Of a DNA stretch of 64,000 nt, positions 15,372 to 26,180 are shown piece after piece. The stretch comes from Myxococcus stipitatus DSM 14675 (lineage in GTDB: Bacteria; Myxococcota; Myxococcia; Myxococcales; Myxococcaceae). Each line of letters opens with the position of its first letter. Position 1 is the stretch's first letter. Below the pieces are notes generated by a model. The model had not been told where the DNA came from. It ran no database searches and saw only the letters and a list, made by a program, of their open reading frames with translations. Made by a program: the position numbers and the translations under genes. Where the stretch lies: NCBI RefSeq assembly GCF_000331735.1, contig NC_020126.1:9055501-9119500 (forward strand), given 5' to 3'.

Positions 15372-17273
15372 TCACGGGCGCAGCCGGAAGGGCACCTTGA
15401 CCACGCGATACACGGCGACAGGCTGTCCCTCCAGCATCGCGGGTTGATAGCGCCACGTGCGCACCGCGCGCAGTGCGGCGGAGGCGAAGGGCTCCTCGCC
15501 TCGCATCACCGTGACATCTCGGACCTCACCTCGCGCGGTGACGACCAGCTTGAGGACCACCATCCCTTCACGTCCCGCCGCTCGCGCCTCCTGGGGGAAC
15601 TCCGGCTGCGGATTCCCCGTGAGCTCCACGGGCGGCTTCGCGTTCTCTGGCAGTTGAATGGGCTCCGCGGCGACGTGACTCGGACGTGCGCCGACCACCG
15701 CGGGCTCCGCCGCGACGGGGACCTCCAGCGGCGTGGGAGCACTCAGCGATGGGCCCGACTGCCACTCCACCGGACTCGCCACCTCCGCGCCGGGAGACGA
15801 CGTCCCACCTCGGCCTCCTCGCTCGCGCTGCAGGCGCTGACTCAAGAGCACCTCGCCAGACCCACCCGCGAGCACTCGGTCCGAGCGATACCCCTCCCGC
15901 ACGAACGTCAACTCGGCGGTGGCAAGACCTCTCGCATCCGGCGGCACCTCCAACACGAAGGGGGTCGTGCCCCGCTCCACACCCTTCCAGAAGACTCGCG
16001 CCCCTGACGGTTGGCTGGAGACATGGAAGCGCACGGGCTGAGGCGGCTGCACCGCTGCAACAATCGTAGGCGGCTCCTCTCGCATCGGCGCAGCCGATGG
16101 CACCGGTGGCACGGCGACTGTCGGCGCGTCCACGGGAGGAGGAGCATGGCGAGCACCGAGCAGATACGCCCCCGCGCCACAGACAAGCAGCACGCCCAGC
16201 ATCAAGCTCCAGCGGGGGAGGCTCGAGCGAGGCTTCTCCGGACGAACCACGGAGGACTCATCCAGGCTGATGTCCAACACCATCGTGCCTTGCACGCCAC
16301 TGTTCGTCGACACGGCCAGCGGCCCGGTCAGCACCTCCCCAGGGCCCGTATCCGCCAAGCCTCCCACCACTCCACGCAGTGCCTCCAGGAGCGCCTCCAT
16401 GGACTCGTATCGGTGCGCGGGCTGCTTCTCCAAGCAGCGGCGCACCACTGCCTCCACGGCCTCGGGAATCACCACCTCCGGACGCACCGTCTGGAAGCGC
16501 GGTGGCGGTTCCTTCTGGTGCGCGAAGATGAGCTCCAGCGGGTCCTGCATCACGAAGGGCGGACGCCCCATGAGCATCTGGTACAGCAGGACTCCGAGCG
16601 CGTAGATGTCACTGCGCGCATCCGCCAGGTTCCGCGCCTGCTCCGGCGCCATGTACATCGGCGAGCCCAGGAACATCCCGCCCTGGGTGATCTCCGGCAC
16701 CGCCTGCGAGGCACCGCTCTCCCCCGCCACGACGAAGGACTTCACCAGCCCGAAGTCGAGCACCTTCACGTGGTCGCGCCCCTCCTCCGCCAGCAACATC
16801 ACGTTCGCGGGCTTCAAGTCCCGGTGCACGACGCCCAGCCGATGCGCCTCGCGCAGCGACCGGCACACCTGCTGGGCGATATCCACCGCGCGTGGCCAAG
16901 GCATGGGCCCGGAGGCCAGGTGCTCCGCCAGCGTGCGCCCCTCCAGATACTCCATCGCGATGTAGAACGTCCCATCCTCCGTCTTCCCGTAGTCGATGAC
17001 GGTGACGGTGTTCGGATGGCTCAGCTTCGCCGTGATGCTCGCCTCCAGGAGGAAGCGCCGCTGGAACTCCGGGTCGCTCGCCGTCGGGAACGAGGGGCTC
17101 ATCACCTTGAGCGCCACCACCCGCTCCAATGGAAGCTGGAGTGCTCGATACACCCGGCCCATGCCCCCGGCGCCCACGGGCGACAACACCCGGAAGCGCC
17201 CATGGAGCACCTGGCCGAGCAGCGGGTCCACCAGCGAATGAGGCGAAGTCGACGGGCGCGATTCAGTCTGCAT
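15372..17273 (-). CDS. Membrane Ser/Thr protein kinase with PEGA and C-terminal TonB domains
   Basis: The product is 633 residues (ATG 17273). The kinase domain (about 27-300) is complete: Gly loop GAGGMGRVY, Lys56 in ALK, catalytic loop HRDLKPAN at 150-157, DFG at 173-175 and APE at 209-211. A single membrane helix lies near 355-373. Outside are a Pro/Ala linker, a PEGA-type beta domain (about 413-482) and a last ~80 residues typical of TonB C-terminal domains (PEFPQEARAAGREGMVVLK, then ALRAVRTWRYQPA). Kinase inside and TonB/PEGA in the periplasm suggests sensing of the envelope or contact with outer-membrane receptors. The ExbBD-binding N-terminal helix of true TonB is replaced by the kinase. 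Confidence 0.9.
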   Translation of the reverse strand: MQTESRPSTSPHSLVDPLLGQVLHGRFRVLSPVGAGGMGRVYRALQLPLERVVALKVMSPSFPTASDPEFQRRFLLEASITAKLSHPNTVTVIDYGKTEDGTFYIAMEYLEGRTLAEHLASGPMPWPRAVDIAQQVCRSLREAHRLGVVHRDLKPANVMLLAEEGRDHVKVLDFGLVKSFVVAGESGASQAVPEITQGGMFLGSPMYMAPEQARNLADARSDIYALGVLLYQMLMGRPPFVMQDPLELIFAHQKEPPPRFQTVRPEVVIPEAVEAVVRRCLEKQPAHRYESMEALLEALRGVVGGLADTGPGEVLTGPLAVSTNSGVQGTMVLDISLDESSVVRPEKPRSSLPRWSLMLGVLLVCGAGAYLLGARHAPPPVDAPTVAVPPVPSAAPMREEPPTIVAAVQPPQPVRFHVSSQPSGARVFWKGVERGTTPFVLEVPPDARGLATAELTFVREGYRSDRVLAGGSGEVLLSQRLQRERGGRGGTSSPGAEVASPVEWQSGPSLSAPTPLEVPVAAEPAVVGARPSHVAAEPIQLPENAKPPVELTGNPQPEFPQEARAAGREGMVVLKLVVTARGEVRDVTVMRGEEPFASAALRAVRTWRYQPAMLEGQPVAVYRVVKVPFRLRP

Positions 17274-17373
17274 GGCGAGCACCTGCCGGAGACCGTCGCA
17301 TGCACCCGTCACGGCGGTGTGCCGGCCACATCACGGCCCGGGCAACATCCCGTCACAACTCCGCGCGCACTCG

Positions 17374-18469: not shown

Positions 18470-18696
18470 CGCTGGAGCCCAAAGCATTCCACAGTTTCAT
18501 TCCCGCTGCGTTTTCATCCCTCTCGCCTGACAACGGGGCAGGCATTCGAGCAAGAGACTGGATGTCTGATAAATCTTTCGCCAGGTGTGGGGGCCCTCCA
18601 CCCGCCGGCCGGGCCGGTGAGTTCACCTAATGACTCAGTGCGCCATCGGAGGATTCCTCCGCTGCGCGAGGTGCCTTCTGGAAGGTGGTGTGGTGT

Positions 18697-19773
18697 ATGG
18701 TCCCCACCCCTTCCGGCGCTCAATCCTTGGGCGTCCCGGGTGACCCCATGCTTCTCCTGCGTGACGTCCAGAAGACCGACCTGGCCGGCCTCAAGCGGCT
18801 CGCCGCCGTGCTCAACACGGTGAACCTGCCGAACAACGAGGAGACGCTCGAGAACATCATCGACAAGTCGGTGAAGAGCTTCGCCGGCAAGGTGAAGAAC
18901 CCGCTCGAGCGTGAGTACCTCTTCGTCCTGGAGGATGTGCGAAACAGCCTCATCATCGGCACGTCGATGATCATCGCCCAGCACGGCACGTACGAGGCGC
19001 CGCACATCTACTACGAGGTCAGCGAGCGGGAGCACTACTCCGCCTCCCTGGAGCGCCACCTCCGGCACAAGGTCCTCTCCATCGCCTACAACTACGAGGG
19101 CCCCACGGAGATTGGTGGCCTCGTCGTCGACCCGCCCTACCGCGCGACGCCGGACAAGCCGGGCAAGCAGCTGTCGTATGTGCGCTTCCTCTTCATCGCC
19201 ATGCACCGCCGGCTGTTCCGTCCGCGCGTGCTCGCGGAGCTGCTCCCGCCGCTGCTCCCGGACGGACGCAGCCTGCTGTGGGAGGCGTGCGGAAAGAAGT
19301 TCACCGGCCTGACGTACCTGGAGGCCGACCGCCTCAGCCGGCAGAACAAGGAGTTCATCAAGGAGCTCTTCCCCGCCTCGGACATCTACGCGTCCCTCTT
19401 CCCGGACCGCGTGCAGAAGGTGCTGGGCGAGGTGGGTCCGAACACGCGCGGCGTGCAGCGCATGCTGGAGCGCATCGGCTTCAAGTACGTGGAGCGCATC
19501 GACCCGTTCGACGGAGGCCCGCACTTCGAGGCCAACACCGGTGACGTGTCGCTCATCCGCAAGTACCGCACGGTGAAGCTGGCGGAAGAGGACTTCGAGA
19601 TGGAGGGGGACGACGTGCTCGTCGCCTTCGAGAAGGAGTCCGGCCGCAACCGCTTCCGCTCCGTGCGCTGCATGGCCCGGCTCGACAACCAGGTCATCTA
19701 CCTGCCCGCCGCCGCGAAGGAAGCCCTGGGCGCGGACGCGGGCGACCGGCTGTCCATCATCCCCTTCGAGTAA
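18697..19773 (+). CDS. astA: Arginine N-succinyltransferase
   Basis: The product is 358 residues from the ATG at 18697, preceded by GGAAGGTGG; the ATG at 18748 (MLLLRDVQKTD) is where family homology begins and is a fair alternative. The sequence follows AstA along its length: RDVQKTDLAGLKRLA, NNEETLENIIDKS, YLFVLEDVRNSLIIGTSMI, and a late FTGLTYLEADRLSRQNKEFI block that matches the succinyltransferase core. AstA transfers succinyl from succinyl-CoA to arginine, the first step of the AST catabolic route. No other ast gene is in the window, so it stands alone. It ends 12 bp from the convergent gene. Confidence 0.88.
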   Translation: MVPTPSGAQSLGVPGDPMLLLRDVQKTDLAGLKRLAAVLNTVNLPNNEETLENIIDKSVKSFAGKVKNPLEREYLFVLEDVRNSLIIGTSMIIAQHGTYEAPHIYYEVSEREHYSASLERHLRHKVLSIAYNYEGPTEIGGLVVDPPYRATPDKPGKQLSYVRFLFIAMHRRLFRPRVLAELLPPLLPDGRSLLWEACGKKFTGLTYLEADRLSRQNKEFIKELFPASDIYASLFPDRVQKVLGEVGPNTRGVQRMLERIGFKYVERIDPFDGGPHFEANTGDVSLIRKYRTVKLAEEDFEMEGDDVLVAFEKESGRNRFRSVRCMARLDNQVIYLPAAAKEALGADAGDRLSIIPFE

Positions 19774-19785
19774 CCGGACCGACGC

Positions 19786-20811
19786 TCACCGCTGACGCAC
19801 GACGCGGTGAGCCCCCCGCAGGAGCGCGAGCCACCGCGCTCCCGCCTCCAGCGCCGGGCCTCGCGCTTCCGCCAGGGCCAGCGGCAGGTGCGTGTCCGGC
19901 AGCACCGCGTCCAGCGAGGTGGGGTCCAGGTCCAGCGTGCCGCCATCCACCAGCGCCACGCGCACCCAGGCGTGAGGTCTCGCGGGCCCGCCATCCACCA
20001 CCAGGAGCCCGTGCACCAGGGCCACCTTCACGCCCTGCTTCCGCGCCCCCGCCGCGAAGCGCAGCGCGTGCGCCAGACAGCCACCCGCCTCGCCTTCGCC
20101 GCCCTCGCGCCAGTCCGCGGCCCCAGGGCCCTTCTCCGGGAACGCCGCGTGGACGCGCGCGGAGAGGGCTCGGGCGGCGACGCTTGTCCACGGCGTCATC
20201 CCCTCCAGCCGCGACGGGACCTCCAGGGCGGGCACCAGCGTCAGCGCGCCCTGCGAGCCGCCCTCGACGGGGAGCCCTTGCGAGAAGAAGTCGGGCGGCG
20301 GGCGCAGGCGCTCTTGGGGGGACGCCTCGGTGAAGCGGGAGTCACCGACCTCCAGCACCTCCATGCGCCCACCCGCGCTGTAGCGGGCTCGGAAGGGGAC
20401 GCCCAGCAGCGTGCCCTCCACCCAGGGGGCCGTCCCTCCGGTGACACAGTGAGGGCCCTCTCGGCCGGACAATTCCTCGCGCCCCGTCACGCAGCCCGGT
20501 GAGGGAGGGCCTCGCCACAGCCACAGCGCCTGGGGCACCCCCTTTCCTCCCGCGAGCCGGCCCGAGGCGTCCACCGCCAGCGTCACCTCGCGGCGCCGCT
20601 CCCCGTGGCGGGTGCCTCGGGTGTGCAGGTGCTGGCTGAGGTAGGTGAAGCGCCCGGCCTCGTGCGTCAGGCTCACCGTGCCCACCGGCACCCCTCGCCA
20701 GGCGAAGACGAAGCGCGCCGACTCCCTCTGGGGAGGGCCCTCTGTCCCCTCCCCTGGGCTCACGGGGCTGGCGGCGAGGAGGAGGACGAGGAGGGCGAGC
20801 GGGGAAGACAC
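19786..20811 (-). CDS. Secreted transglutaminase-like protein
   Basis: The product is 341 residues from a GTG at 20811, with a signal peptide of about 19 residues (LALLVLLLAASPVSPG). The C-terminal third carries a transglutaminase/protease-like core: GGCLAHALRFAAGARKQGVK (Cys), then PHAWVRVALVDGGTLDLDPT (His and Asp). This is the Cys-His-Asp order of the superfamily. The first two thirds (about 30-220) are a beta-rich region of unknown family. It probably cleaves or crosslinks an envelope or extracellular substrate (inference). It is divergent from the chemoreceptor fusion at 20877 and convergent with astA. Confidence 0.72.
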   Translation of the reverse strand: MSSPLALLVLLLAASPVSPGEGTEGPPQRESARFVFAWRGVPVGTVSLTHEAGRFTYLSQHLHTRGTRHGERRREVTLAVDASGRLAGGKGVPQALWLWRGPPSPGCVTGREELSGREGPHCVTGGTAPWVEGTLLGVPFRARYSAGGRMEVLEVGDSRFTEASPQERLRPPPDFFSQGLPVEGGSQGALTLVPALEVPSRLEGMTPWTSVAARALSARVHAAFPEKGPGAADWREGGEGEAGGCLAHALRFAAGARKQGVKVALVHGLLVVDGGPARPHAWVRVALVDGGTLDLDPTSLDAVLPDTHLPLALAEARGPALEAGARWLALLRGAHRVVRQR

Positions 20812-20876: not shown

Positions 20877-23800
20877 ATGGGCGCCAAACGGTACCTCTTC
20901 ACGTTCGGCCTGCTGGCCGGTCTGCTCTCCGCGCTCGTGCTCGGGGGAGTCCTCGAGTTGAGCGGCCAGCCGCTGGAGACCTCCTCCTGGACGGTGCTGG
21001 TGGTGGCCACGCCCGCGCTGTACCTGACGGGTGGCTATCTCGCGTGGTTCCGCTGGGCGGCGCTGCGGCGGCTGGCCCGGCGCCGCGTCATGGCGCGCCT
21101 GGCGGAGGGAGACCTCACCACCTCCGGCGGCCCCACCTTCGAGGGACACGAGGACGTCCGCCGCCTCATCCTGTCGCTGCGCCGCGCGCTGTCGCAGGTG
21201 CAGCGGGTGACGGCCAACCTGCACCGCACCAGCAACGACGTGAGCGAACAGGCCCTCAGCCTGCTCGAAGCGGCGCGCCGACAGGGGGGCGCCGTGGAGC
21301 GCACGCTCCAGTCCGTCAGCGACATGGGCGGCAGCCTCCAGGTGGTGGGCAAGCGCGTGCACCAGCTCGAGGTGTTCGCCGTCGACACCACGGGCGCCCT
21401 GCTGGAGATGACGGAGCGGCTGGGGCAGGTCGTGGGCGCGCTGTCGCAGGTCAACGACTTCGCCAACCACACCACCGCGCTGATGCAGGCCATGAGCGAG
21501 CGGCTGGCCAACATCGCCTCCTCCGGCGATGAGCTGGCGCGCTTCGCGAGCGAGGCCGAGGACTTCGTCGCCCTCGTCGAAGGAGGCATCGACTCCGTGC
21601 GCCGCCGCGCCAGCGAGACGAACCAGCTGGCGCTCGCGGTGACGGCGACGGCCGAGCGGGGCGAAGTGCTGGTGGCCGACAGCGTGAAGGGCATGTACCG
21701 GGTGGAGGAGACGGTGCGGAAGGCCGCGGAGCTGATGGGCACGCTGGGCGCCCGCTCCGCGGAGATTGGCCGCATCGTCGACGTCATCCAGGAGATTGCC
21801 GACCAGACCAACCTGCTCGCCCTCAACGCGGCCATCATCGCCGCCCAGGCGGGTGAGCACGGCCGGCCCTTCGGCGTGGTGGCCAACGAGATTCGCAACC
21901 TGGCCGAGCGCACCACGCGCTCCACACGCGAAATCGGCGCCATGGTGTCCGGCATCCGCGACGCGGTGCTGACCGCGGTGACGCTGGTGCACGAAGGCCG
22001 CGAGCAGGCCACCACCGGCGTGGCGCTGGGAGACCGCGCCTCCGAGGCGCTGGTGGAGATTCGCACCATCACCCAGCGCACCTTCAGCGCCGTGGAAGCC
22101 ACGGTGACGGAGACGCAGCGGCTGGAGGCCCAGGGCGCCACGGTGGTGGAGGCCAGCCGGCGGGTGGCTCGGCGCGTGGAGGACGTCACGCGCATGGCCA
22201 TCGAGCAGTCCGGCCACGCGCGCGAGCTGGTGCGCCAGACGATGGAGATGGCCCGCGTCGGGCATGGGGCCTCGCAGAAGGCGGAGGACCAGGCGCGCAC
22301 CGGACGCGACCTGTCCGAGGCCGTGGTCCGCCTGAGCGCCTCCATCGAGGAGCTGCGCACCGCCAACGCGGTGCTCATCAAGGCGGACTCCTCCATTCGC
22401 GAGGAGGTGGCGCAGGTGCGCGAGGACGCGCGCCGGGTCATCCGCATCGGCGATGGGCTGACGCGCACGGTGAATCAGCTGGGCCACGAGGCGCTGGGGC
22501 TGGAGACGGAGGTGTTCCGCTTCCAGCTGCCTCGGCCGCGCGCGGGCGGCACGATGCGCGTGGTGCTGCATCAGGCGGCCTCGCTGCGCAATCGTCAGGC
22601 GGTGGACCCGCTGTTCAGCGTGGAGAACCAGCTCTCGGAGCTGACCGCGTGTGCCTTCTCGGGCCTCACGCGGCTGGAGGACGGAGGACTGGAGCCGGAC
22701 CTCGCCGAGCGCTGGGACGCAGACCCGTCCGCGCGCCGCTACCGCTTCTACCTGCGCCGAGGCGTCACCTTCCACGACGGGGCGCTGCTCACCGCGACCG
22801 ACGTGAAGCGCCACCTGGAGCGCTTGCTGGACCCCGCCGTGCGCTCACCGGACCGCAGCCTGCTCGAGGATGTGGAGGGCGCGGTCGAGTTCTCCTCGGG
22901 ACTGGCCCGCGAGGTGTCCGGCATCGAGGCGCTCGACGACGCCACGCTGGAGATTCGCCTGCGAGAGCCCAAGGCGTTCTTCCCGCACTTGATGGCGCTG
23001 ACGCCCACGGCGGTCGCGCGAGTGGATGCGGGGGGGAGGCTGGTGGGCACGGGCCCCTTCCGCGTCGTGTCGCTGGAGCCGGAGCGCGTGGTGCTGGAGC
23101 GCAATCCGTCCTACTGGCGCCCCACGGTGCCGCTGCTCGACAGGCTGGAGTTCCAGCTCGTGGACTCGCGCGAGGAGGCCGTCACGAGGCTGCGCACGGG
23201 CTCCGCGGACCTGGTGTCCTTCCTCTCCGCGGAGCACGTGGAGGTGCCAGGGCTCGACTCCTTCCAGGTGCTGGCCAGCGCCGCGCCCTTCACCGCCTTC
23301 ATCGCCCTCAACCTGCGCGAGGCGCCCTACGACGACGTGCGCGTGCGCCGAGCCCTGCGCGCGGGCATGAACATCCAGGGCGCGGTGGAGCAGTTCCACC
23401 CGGGCGCCCGCGTGGCCCGCACCCTCACCCCGCCCGAGCTGATTGGCGGCGCGGAGGTCCGGGGACTGCCGACTCCCGACGTGGCGATGGCGGAGCAGCT
23501 CCTGCGCGAGGTGGGCCTGCGTCGGCTGCGGCTCACGCTGCATCACCCCGCCGGGCGCGACACCTCCGCCGAGGACGCGGTCCTCTTCCGTCCCCTGCTG
23601 CAAGCGGGCTTGCTGGAGCTGCGGCACGTGGAGATGGCGCCGGAGGACTACGCGGTGCATCTGCGCGAGGGAAAGCTCCCGGCCTTCCACGCGCACTGGC
23701 TGGCGGACTTCCCGGACCCGGACACGTTCCTCTACTTCCTGCTGAACTCCGCCGCGCAGACGGTCTACCCGCTGAGCTATCGCAACGCGGAGCTGGACCG

Positions 23801-24020
23801 CATCACCGCGGAGGCTCGCGTGTCCATCGACCCGGAGCTGCGTCAGCAGCTCTACGTGCGCGCCGAGCACCTCTTCCACGACGACTGTCCGCTCATCCCG
23901 CTGTACCACGAGCGCATCCACGCGGCGGCCACGTCGTCGGTGCAGGGGCTGCGGCTGCACCAGACGCCGCCGCAGGTCCGCTACGAGGACCTCTGGGTGG
24001 ACCCGAACACGGCCGCGTGA
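20877..24020 (+). CDS. Chemoreceptor (MCP) fused to a family-5 solute-binding protein
   Basis: The product is 1047 residues in one frame. Two membrane helices (about 6-28 and 38-60) enclose a loop of only ~9 residues. A coiled-coil MCP signalling domain follows with its tip near residue 296-350 (EIGRIVDVIQEIADQTNLLALNA, GRPFGVVANEIRNLAERT). From about residue 556 to the end is a whole ABC-type peptide-binding protein: LFSVENQLSELTACAFSGL, LAERWDADPSARRYRFYLR, GVTFHDGALLTATDVKRHL, then DPDTFLYFLLNS. There is no third membrane segment or signal peptide, so the predicted topology puts the binding domain in the cytoplasm. It may sense a cytoplasmic ligand and signal to a Che/Frz-like kinase. Confidence 0.88.
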   Translation: MGAKRYLFTFGLLAGLLSALVLGGVLELSGQPLETSSWTVLVVATPALYLTGGYLAWFRWAALRRLARRRVMARLAEGDLTTSGGPTFEGHEDVRRLILSLRRALSQVQRVTANLHRTSNDVSEQALSLLEAARRQGGAVERTLQSVSDMGGSLQVVGKRVHQLEVFAVDTTGALLEMTERLGQVVGALSQVNDFANHTTALMQAMSERLANIASSGDELARFASEAEDFVALVEGGIDSVRRRASETNQLALAVTATAERGEVLVADSVKGMYRVEETVRKAAELMGTLGARSAEIGRIVDVIQEIADQTNLLALNAAIIAAQAGEHGRPFGVVANEIRNLAERTTRSTREIGAMVSGIRDAVLTAVTLVHEGREQATTGVALGDRASEALVEIRTITQRTFSAVEATVTETQRLEAQGATVVEASRRVARRVEDVTRMAIEQSGHARELVRQTMEMARVGHGASQKAEDQARTGRDLSEAVVRLSASIEELRTANAVLIKADSSIREEVAQVREDARRVIRIGDGLTRTVNQLGHEALGLETEVFRFQLPRPRAGGTMRVVLHQAASLRNRQAVDPLFSVENQLSELTACAFSGLTRLEDGGLEPDLAERWDADPSARRYRFYLRRGVTFHDGALLTATDVKRHLERLLDPAVRSPDRSLLEDVEGAVEFSSGLAREVSGIEALDDATLEIRLREPKAFFPHLMALTPTAVARVDAGGRLVGTGPFRVVSLEPERVVLERNPSYWRPTVPLLDRLEFQLVDSREEAVTRLRTGSADLVSFLSAEHVEVPGLDSFQVLASAAPFTAFIALNLREAPYDDVRVRRALRAGMNIQGAVEQFHPGARVARTLTPPELIGGAEVRGLPTPDVAMAEQLLREVGLRRLRLTLHHPAGRDTSAEDAVLFRPLLQAGLLELRHVEMAPEDYAVHLREGKLPAFHAHWLADFPDPDTFLYFLLNSAAQTVYPLSYRNAELDRITAEARVSIDPELRQQLYVRAEHLFHDDCPLIPLYHERIHAAATSSVQGLRLHQTPPQVRYEDLWVDPNTAA

Positions 24021-24026
24021 AGTGAG

Positions 24027-26180
24027 TCACGGGGCCTCGCGTCGGGCCCCGTCCGAATGCGCGTGCCGCTGAGGCCAGCCGAGTGTCTCCACCTGGATGC
24101 CCGGCCCCAGGCCGTAGGACTCCAGCCGCCACACGCCCTCGCGCTCGACGACGACGAGCATCCGCCCCTCGAAGAACGCGGCCCCCGCCAGCCGCGTCGG
24201 GTACCCCGGCAGCGGACACATGCCGAGTCGCTCGCCTTGGGCGAAGAACTGCAACCACACCTGCCGGCCCTCGGGCACCCACGCATCCGCGAGCACTCCC
24301 ACCGCGTCCCCCTGCAGCAGCGCCGCGTCGTGCAGCGTGCCGGGCAGCGCCTCGAAGGGCAGCGCATCCACCTCCCACGCCGGGCGCCCCGTCGTCGAGT
24401 CCACCGCGCGAAGCACGGTGCGCTCCTCTTCGGGCGCACAAGGGAGTCCTCCCTCACGTGCGCAGACCTGCGCGAACAGATAGCCCGAGGTCCCCGCCGC
24501 GGACAGCAGCACAGGCTCCGCGTGGGGCGTCAGCGTCCGAGTCCCTCCATCCCAATCCACATCCACCTGTGCGCCGCCGTCGGTGGAGACAAAGGCCCGC
24601 GCGCCCACCAGGAGCGTTCCGCTCGCCACCGCCAGCGAGGCACGCCCGATGAGGACACCGCCATCTTCCCGCAGGGAGGTGACGTGCAGCGCGGAGCCGC
24701 CATCCGGGTCGACGTCGGCGCGCTCCAAGCGGCCCTCCACCGTGTATCGAATCGGTGTGCCTGCTGTGTCGAGCGCGAGTCGAGACTCTCCTCGCCACGG
24801 CTCGACGGGCCCCGCATGGACGAGGGAGCCCGCGTCCTCTCGTGCCGAGAGCCAGACCCATCGGGCGCCTTCCGGCACGGGGGCAGCGGTGGCGGTGCCG
24901 CCATCGAGCGCATGCGCCCACGCCACCTGCGCGAGGACCTCCCCTGCCTCCGTCAGCGCGACCTGTCCCGCGTTCAGGTGCCCGACCCAAGGCCCCGCGT
25001 CCCCGGGCGCACCGAGCGACTCCCACGTGGCCTCCCACTGACGCTCCCCCAGGCCCCGGGCGGAATAGGACTCCAGCCCCGAGGGCGCGAGCACCACCAC
25101 GCCCGCATCCGACGCGGCCAGCAAGGTGCGCGGGCCACCGTCGGGATAGAGCGACTCGTAGCGCATCAGCCCATGTCGGGTGAAAGAGACCAGGCGGCAA
25201 CCCGCGTCGCCACCGCAGACCGAGGTGAACAGTCCGCCTCCTTGAACGAGCAGCGCGGGAGCCCCCACCGGCTCACCGCCGAGCTCCTGGCTGAAGGTCG
25301 CCACGAGGTCTCCCGCGTCTGGCTTCTCGCATTCACCTCCCTGACAGGTGCCCTCCCCCTGACAGGCCGTGGCGGGTGCGCAGACAATGCCATCCGGTGG
25401 CGCCATCTCCTTGCAGGAGCCATCGAAACACAAACGCGCCTTCTTGCAGCTCACGGGTCCACAGACGCTGAAGTCCCGAGCATCCTCCTCGCCACAGCCG
25501 AGGTCGCGGTCGCACACGCCCACCTTGCAGGGGTTGCGCGGCACGGGACACACCACCGGCGATGCCACACAGCCCAGGCTCGGTGAGCACGCATCCACGG
25601 TGCACGGGTTGTCGTCATCACACGAGCGAGGAGCGCCCACGCACGCCCCCGACTCACAGTGCCCATCCACCTGGCAGCGACTGAGCGGGACGCAGGAGAC
25701 GCCATCCTCGAGGGTCTGCTCCACGCAGGTGCCGGAGGCGAGGTCGAAGGTCGACGCGTGGCAGGGACCCGACGGCGTGCACGTCAACGGACGAACACCC
25801 AGGCCCTTGAGCCGGACGGACGTGGTGCCTCCCGCGCCCGTCAACGTCAGCGAGCCCTCCGCGGTGCCCACGCCCGCGAGGAAGTCCACGTCGACGACGG
25901 CGGTGCCGCCTCCGGGCACCATCACCTCCGAGGCCACCACGGTGAAGGGCGAGCCCGAGGCCACCACCACCGAGACACTCGCGCGGCCGGTGGCGAGCAC
26001 CGTCACCTGTCTCCGCGTCAGCGTGCCTTCGAGGGCTCGGCCGAAATCGACCTCCTCATCCTGGGCGCGGAAGCCCTGGCGCGCACCGCCCACGTTGGAG
26101 TTGTCCCCGCAGCGGCAGCCCGCCGAGCACAGCGCGAGCACGGCGAACAACACGGTCCCCGAGTGGATGCATGAGGCCAT
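24027..26180 (-). CDS. Large Cys-rich surface lipoprotein
   Basis: The product is 717 residues. The signal peptide ends in CSAGC (Cys22). Residues 35-130 form a beta-sandwich-like segment (VTVLATGRASVSVVV, FTVVASEVMVPGGGTAVVDVDF) of the ASH/CARDB sort. Residues 130-290 contain about 30 cysteines with DDDNPCTVDACSPSLGC-type units, common in myxobacterial exported proteins. The remainder is Gly/Asp-rich with strands that resemble a PQQ-like propeller (AVDSTTGRPAWEVDALP). No catalytic motif is seen. It is convergent with the chemoreceptor fusion. Confidence 0.8.
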   Translation of the reverse strand: MASCIHSGTVLFAVLALCSAGCRCGDNSNVGGARQGFRAQDEEVDFGRALEGTLTRRQVTVLATGRASVSVVVASGSPFTVVASEVMVPGGGTAVVDVDFLAGVGTAEGSLTLTGAGGTTSVRLKGLGVRPLTCTPSGPCHASTFDLASGTCVEQTLEDGVSCVPLSRCQVDGHCESGACVGAPRSCDDDNPCTVDACSPSLGCVASPVVCPVPRNPCKVGVCDRDLGCGEEDARDFSVCGPVSCKKARLCFDGSCKEMAPPDGIVCAPATACQGEGTCQGGECEKPDAGDLVATFSQELGGEPVGAPALLVQGGGLFTSVCGGDAGCRLVSFTRHGLMRYESLYPDGGPRTLLAASDAGVVVLAPSGLESYSARGLGERQWEATWESLGAPGDAGPWVGHLNAGQVALTEAGEVLAQVAWAHALDGGTATAAPVPEGARWVWLSAREDAGSLVHAGPVEPWRGESRLALDTAGTPIRYTVEGRLERADVDPDGGSALHVTSLREDGGVLIGRASLAVASGTLLVGARAFVSTDGGAQVDVDWDGGTRTLTPHAEPVLLSAAGTSGYLFAQVCAREGGLPCAPEEERTVLRAVDSTTGRPAWEVDALPFEALPGTLHDAALLQGDAVGVLADAWVPEGRQVWLQFFAQGERLGMCPLPGYPTRLAGAAFFEGRMLVVVEREGVWRLESYGLGPGIQVETLGWPQRHAHSDGARREAP

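Follow-up and report, generated by a model that had tools for sequence, protein, structure and literature searches.

Solute-binding proteins are extracytoplasmic parts and chemoreceptors usually sense the outside of the cell; what, then, would a chemoreceptor do with a complete binding protein on its predicted cytoplasmic end? The question is raised by a gene in a window of 64,000 nucleotides (the whole stretch of DNA analysed) of NC_020126.1 from Myxococcus stipitatus DSM 14675, whose genome is a single contig of 10.35 Mb. We call its product McpK, after the M. xanthus receptor that it resembles in domain order, or the window protein where orthologs are compared; coordinates are window positions unless a locus is given. 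On balance, and with modest confidence, we read McpK as a membrane-anchored chemoreceptor that would sense a short peptide or peptide-like metabolite from inside the cell via its fused solute-binding protein (SBP).

Architecture of the receptor

The gene is a single uninterrupted frame with its ATG at 20877 and its stop at 24020. A Pfam scan of the product finds MCPsignal, of methyl-accepting chemotaxis proteins (MCPs), at residues 252–426 (E 6.2e-32) and SBP_bac_5 at residues 605–960 (E 3.4e-61), both far over cut-off, and no helix-turn-helix (HTH) domain. The full-length structural model (mean pLDDT, the model's own confidence measure, 75.7) consists of helices 2–28, 35–76, 92–324 and 330–546 followed by the SBP. 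The parts are as follows.

20877–24020, + strand: McpK-type receptor gene, 1047 amino acids in one frame (open reading frame, Pfam, orthologs)
20880–20960, + strand: predicted membrane helix 1, residues 2–28 (hydropathy, charge, model helix)
20961–20978, + strand: predicted short outer loop, residues 29–34 in the model, 29–37 by hydropathy (model, charge counts)
20979–21056, + strand: predicted membrane helix 2, residues 35–60 (hydropathy, model, charge counts)
21057–21206, + strand: HAMP-like element, residues 61–110, motif AEGDL (positional match to the HAMP domain of P0002, an MCP of the same genome)
21150–22514, + strand: MCP signalling hairpin, helices 92–324 and 330–546 (Pfam, model)
21801–21872, + strand: hairpin tip, residues 309–332, with I321 and Q324 (comparison with the genome's MCPs)
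22515–22550, + strand: junction, residues 547–558, EVFRFQL straight into PRPRAGG (alignment with P0002)
22551–24017, + strand: complete family-5 SBP, residues 559–1047 (Pfam, model, structure matches)
23688–23690, + strand: residue 938, aligned with OppA Arg413, His in the window protein (profile alignment to OppA)
23706–23708, + strand: Asp944, aligned with OppA Asp419 (profile alignment to OppA)

We aligned 41 orthologs, 33 of which were kept as aligned members after seven near-duplicates (L024, L027, L029, L036, L039, L053 and L055) and the N-terminally disrupted L045 had been left out; the partial L080/L081 and the split L084 stand outside the 41. MCPsignal is found in 33/33 aligned members at E ≤0.1, and together with SBP_bac_5 in 33/33, while HAMP is absent among the families listed for them (25 of 37). 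Residues 487–496 of the window protein hold one match to a methylation-site consensus.

Conservation of the fusion

The layout recurs widely when the same architecture is sought in other genomes. Within the genus, matches occur in 27/27 genomes, unbroken from residue 1 in 25, from residue 31 in G010 and in two frames in G005. The family has them in 88/96 genomes, and in 80 of its 83 genomes of good quality; in G031, G034, G039, G088 and G095 they are pieces only, mostly at contig ends, and the eight genomes without a match (G036, G074, G078, G083–G086 and G093) include several that are small or incomplete. In the phylum as a whole 92/195 genomes match at E 1e-60, only four of them beyond the family: G152 and G155 in the same order, G163 and G164 in the same class, the match in G164 being divided between two contigs. 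By profile search the phylum gave 93/195, the extra genome (G099) matching the MCP part only. The four named matches are three Myxococcus species at 90–91% identity and a Thermomicrobiales metagenome-assembled genome, which matches the SBP only (25%).

Because unbroken matches recur across genus and family genomes, the McpK layout is no frameshift artefact: the frameshift joining two genes that would have undone the original prediction is ruled out, an assembly artefact and a chance reading frame are rejected with it, and the chemoreceptor–SBP fusion is confirmed as real and conserved.

Two variants of the locus stand apart. In G005 (L084) the break between the two frames falls exactly on the MCP/SBP junction, with a small linker length difference, and may reflect a real split or an assembly error. 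In one genus of the family, four of six genomes (G028, with L061 and L062, and G029, G031 and G032) have two McpK matches; none of the usual neighbour genes lies beside the second copy in G028.

Where the binding protein was added

The point of fusion can be placed precisely by comparison with P0002, a 694-residue MCP of the same genome that lacks an SBP (L002:1543–3627, − strand). In P0002 the stretch from tip residue Q453 through the last residue is 242 residues; in McpK the stretch from tip residue Q310 to P552 is 242 residues in 41/41 aligned orthologs. P0002 ends in EVRRFRV where McpK has EVFRFQL, then PRPRAGG into the SBP. The tip-to-end stretch of the 32 P0002-like loci elsewhere in the phylum (L133–L164) runs to 222–258 residues, and is 242 in 18. 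This shared distance places the addition of the SBP directly behind the native C-terminus of a long-hairpin MCP. In the model only about 12 residues separate the last hairpin helix (to 546) from the first SBP strand (from 559), and the mean share of the commonest residue is 0.77 in the junction (547–558), 0.87 in segment 1025–1040 and 0.70 in the SBP core.

The solute-binding domain and its possible ligand

A separate model of the last 490 residues gives one complete SBP (mean pLDDT 89.4; the final 17 residues below 50), which together with the Pfam matches bears out the predicted order of an MCP domain and a complete family-5 binding protein of about 490 residues. VIA-align places it closest to DppE with murein tripeptide (Z 31.6, root-mean-square deviation 4.1, 458 residues aligned), MppA and Yersinia pestis OppA (Z 31.3 each); the 50 entries listed, at Z 28–32, are all family-5 binding proteins, and Foldseek agrees on the family. 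By sequence, most of the top matches carry the names of peptide binders; the best, 8upi, is itself named as a peptide-binding protein but was solved with aminoserine.

A check of the pocket for peptide contacts, proposed with the original prediction, gave a favourable answer. In the profile alignment D944, W941 and residue 938 correspond to Asp419, Trp416 and Arg413 of OppA, which we take to make the anchor contacts with the alpha-amino and carboxylate groups; the aspartate is kept in 40/41 orthologs, the tryptophan in 41/41 and the arginine in 38/41. The sequence thus supports a pocket compatible with peptides.

The fold is nevertheless no proof of a peptide ligand, because family-5 binders are varied and 8upi itself holds aminoserine. 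The cytoplasmic SBP may instead bind a non-peptide, such as a sugar phosphate, an amino acid, or an opine-like or metal-chelate metabolite, in the manner of SgrR, and this is the alternative that survives best, although we consider it unlikely. Binders of nickel, sialic acid, opines and glutathione within the broad fold class would agree with it, as would a weak match to an SgrR model and the histidine at position 938 of the window protein. SgrR-like regulators carry a C-terminal SBP_bac_5 domain, and SgrR, which answers glucose-phosphate stress, is said to bind glutamate (PMC13060122). The near invariance of W941, D944 and R938 and the naming of most of the best sequence matches as peptide binders argue against it.

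Hairpin length, tip and kinase partner

Which kinase McpK might address can be approached through its hairpin, whose tip is strongly conserved among orthologs. The labels DifA, FrzCD and che8 are used here as given by gene cluster, not by sequence comparison. McpK has 234–235 residues after the tip Asn (234 to L551) and P0002 has 234, against 166 in the DifA-like L010 and 149–161 in 16 other MCPs of the genome. Among the genome's 19 MCPs, McpK shares the tip AAIIAAQAG with P0002 alone; the remaining 17 carry E and R or K where McpK has I321 and Q324, residues that we take to correspond to E385 and R388 of Tsr, a trimer contact. I321 and Q324 are each found in 40/41 McpK orthologs; of the 32 P0002-like loci, 29 show I and three show L at the first position, and 31 show Q and one shows S at the second. 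Receptors like P0002 occur in 132/195 phylum genomes and accompany McpK in 90 of its 92 genomes, being missing in G034 and G059. At four P0002-like loci (L087, L089, L090 and L091) we noted, by eye, neighbours resembling Tat components.

The original prediction suggested that McpK could feed a Che or Frz pathway. A Frz link is unlikely, since in the FrzCD-like L008 the tip Asn is followed by 151 residues, compared with 234 in McpK, and the tip is of the E/R type. Signalling together with DifA to the Dif kinase we regard as doubtful. In the model each arm of McpK spans about 31–33 heptads, against the 22 per arm of class 44H; and the DifA-like L010, with its 166 residues, has an E/R tip in place of I/Q. 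The long hairpin and the I/Q tip thus argue against grouping McpK with DifA as class 44H, as was done when both were placed in phylogenetic group 1 and class 44H and McpK was assigned to Dif (PMC3945109, section 8). These features suggest that McpK belongs to a separate long-hairpin receptor team, and it probably signals apart from both Dif and Frz.

The genome has seven frames of 745–976 residues with a CheW domain, two of them confirmed CheA, as well as a 748-residue frame with two weak CheW matches. For six of the seven, an MCP lies no more than about 5 kb away. The che8-like cluster L131 (G000, 6.69–6.71 Mb) encodes the CheA P0003 and a CheW, with no MCP match within about 0.5 Mb, and P0003 is a candidate partner of McpK. 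No CheA match was found by tblastn at 1e-15 in the 32 P0002-like loci, which span 4.8–19.5 kb and are in several cases cut by contig ends; the queries were P0003, the DifE-like CheA and four further frames of the same genome, putative CheAs chosen by a sequence motif, a fifth such frame, at L125, being left out.

Maintenance of the domain and membrane topology

Selection was compared along the protein as the ratio of nonsynonymous to synonymous rates (dN/dS) in seven pairs drawn from 12 sequences: 0.03–0.14 for the tip, 0.00–0.31 for the two arms, 0.11–0.27 for the SBP and 0.31–0.50 for the transmembrane (TM) region. The low dN/dS of the SBP indicates that this pocket-bearing domain is maintained, if under slightly weaker constraint than the tip; the membrane part is the loosest and seems to serve as no more than an anchor. 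It is therefore improbable that the SBP has ceased to be a sensor and persists as a structural or protein-interaction module, for dimer spacing or docking, since both the pocket anchors and the low dN/dS speak against such a role, even if fusions often re-use domains and no transporter partner appears among the neighbours scanned.

The placement of the SBP in the cytoplasm is a prediction from hydropathy, charge and model. Two N-terminal hydrophobic peaks are present in 40/40 orthologs with an intact N-terminus (L045 being omitted from the charge and TM counts), the weakest reaching 1.45 for the first and 1.15 for the second on the Kyte-Doolittle scale, and the loop between them is nine residues by hydropathy or six (29–34) between the model helices, in line with the two helices and short outer loop first proposed. 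Lysine and arginine (K/R) number two in the N-terminal tail in 32/40 orthologs, zero in the outer loop in 30/40 (two of the 30 without an aligned loop residue) and at least three after TM2 in 38/40, a positive-inside pattern that therefore predicts both termini inside. Furthermore, the MCP hairpin must be cytoplasmic to meet CheA and CheW, which places the SBP behind it in the cytoplasm as well; the domain starts at residue 552–559, with no export signal before it. McpK should thus be a two-TM receptor with its SBP in the cytoplasm, as originally proposed.

That no later helix exists also agrees with the hydropathy. The SBP peaks reach 1.40 at residue 795 in the window protein and up to 1.55 elsewhere, and shift in position between orthologs. 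A third membrane helix, which would put the SBP in the periplasm and let the receptor sense the outside, as the three TMs counted by TMHMM (PMC3945109, Table 1) might suggest, is rejected as highly improbable, since its strongest candidate, residues 353–371 (1.56 in the window protein; one ortholog reaches 2.13), lies as a helix inside the hairpin model, is at least 1.6 in just 4/41 orthologs and below 1.2 in 26/41, contains the nearly invariant R361, and would destroy the hairpin if it crossed there.

A possible mechanism

In the mechanism that we propose, a complete peptide-binding protein would have been attached, with no long flexible linker, to the natural C-terminus of an old long-hairpin, McpJ-like receptor, in which the two helices and short loop would serve only as an anchor. 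As the MCP hairpin leads back to the membrane, the SBP would lie at the inner membrane face beside the HAMP-like element. The two lobes would close on a short peptide or peptide-like metabolite bound in the cytoplasm, and closure might alter how the HAMP/hairpin junction packs and, in turn, the activity of the tip-bound CheA, in an array probably distinct from those of Dif and Frz. Amino-acid starvation triggers development in myxobacteria, and the likely physiological role of McpK is to gauge the supply of imported peptides for either development or motility. A more elaborate proposal, in which this inside gauge of imported, prey-derived or recycled peptides drives a private long-hairpin array with McpJ-like receptors, perhaps through the receptor-less che8-like kinase, and times starvation development, is speculative and, taken as a whole, rather unlikely. 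If the receptor does sense from inside, myxobacteria would tune their behaviour to the peptide pool after uptake and not to outside peptides, which bears on the route from nutrient state to chemosensory systems in these bacteria.

Several points weigh against sensing of a cytoplasmic peptide by McpK. First of all, residue 938 is His in the window protein and in L023, and Tyr in L071, and the family-5 structure matches also include binders of nickel complexes, glutathione, sialic acid and opines. Second, the dN/dS of the SBP lies above that of the MCP tip. Third, the hairpin is poorly modelled at the tip and mid-arm, with pLDDT below 50 at residues 206–238, 320–323, 325–331 and 416–445, and the window protein has no Pfam HAMP match up to E 1. 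Fourth, no che gene or peptide permease occurs among the neighbours scanned in the window, other loci being only sampled. Finally, the three-TM count obtained by TMHMM for M. xanthus McpK would put the SBP outside (PMC3945109, Table 1), and the phenotype of mcpK there comes by elimination only. Systematic in-frame single mcp deletions were made in M. xanthus, and mcpK is absent, in section 7, both from the mutants without defect and from those with an S-motility defect; its deletion may thus give a developmental defect, which would speak for the proposed role, although the text is uneven, listing mcpL in both places (PMC3945109).

Gene neighbourhood

Neighbour genes were counted at 27 flanking loci, some of which end at contig edges. 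The most frequent is the divergent neighbour.

19786–20811, − strand: transglutaminase-like protein, having Cys-His-Asp and a signal peptide recognised by eye

It lies upstream on the opposite strand at 21/27 loci, and Cys-His-Asp is kept in 17/21 alignments, the other four lacking one or more aligned residues. We speculate that this protein is linked to the receptor and might supply peptides. An AstA gene lies upstream on the same strand at 16/27 loci, and downstream are a VTT gene at 16/27 and RlmN at 10/27. In the window itself, 18685–19773 (+ strand) encodes an AstA-like arginine N-succinyltransferase, under the NCBIfam cut-offs of all four matching models; 24027–26180 (− strand) a Dictyostelium-type repeat protein convergent with the receptor, found downstream at 12/27 loci; and 15372–17312 (− strand) a fusion of a Ser/Thr protein kinase with a TonB C-terminal domain (Pfam matches to Pkinase and TonB_C). 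No che or peptide-permease gene was found among the ten neighbours of the distant orthologs L071, L072 and L073 and of the second copy L062. At L071:11192–13557 (G155) a distant McpK ortholog is adjoined, on the opposite strand, by a tetratricopeptide-repeat (TPR) protein and a Peripla_BP_6/ANF_receptor binding protein.

Comparison with known systems

M. xanthus McpK (MXAN_6456, ABF92748) was catalogued in 2014 as an orphan of 1048 residues with MCP and extracellular-solute-binding domains and no HAMP (PMC3945109, Table 1), and that paper names it in three places only. The view that no well-described example of the layout exists thus holds in part: the same domains were already on record, but no study of the ligand or topology of McpK was found in the open-access PMC literature. 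The M. xanthus protein and the window protein are alike in domain order, length (1048 against 1047 residues) and in being encoded by an orphan gene, a likeness of layout. They differ in that three TMs, class 44H and Dif are given for the former in that paper, whereas the window protein is predicted to have two TMs, and its hairpin is far longer and its tip unlike that of DifA. The strongest additions made here are the exact point of fusion, the predicted topology with two TMs, and a hairpin length and tip that set McpK apart from Dif.

P0002 is like the window protein in hairpin length, in the tip IIAAQAG, in its EVxRFx C-terminus and in being an orphan, and unlike it in having a longer region before HAMP, a Pfam HAMP match and no SBP. 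We liken it to McpJ by length and domains; McpJ is an orphan of 723 residues with HAMP at 203–275, in the same phylogenetic group as McpK and of class 40H (PMC3945109).

OppA, DppA, DppE and MppA share with the window SBP the complete fold, the anchor Asp and Trp and, in most orthologs, the Arg. They are exported and feed ABC transporters, whereas the window SBP comes after a hairpin predicted to be cytoplasmic and lacks a preceding export signal. Sensor domains and cytosolic proteins, too, are recognised by SBP profiles (PMC9602780), and the cytoplasmic regulators SgrR and DsvR, with their family-5 domain, provide a precedent (PMC13060122). SgrR and DsvR resemble the window protein in carrying this domain at the C-terminus of a regulator inside the cell; SgrR, however, acts on DNA and has its HTH at the N-terminus, whereas the window protein is an MCP. 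The architecture itself is thus partly catalogued, and what would be new is a cytoplasmic binding protein as a chemoreceptor's sensor.

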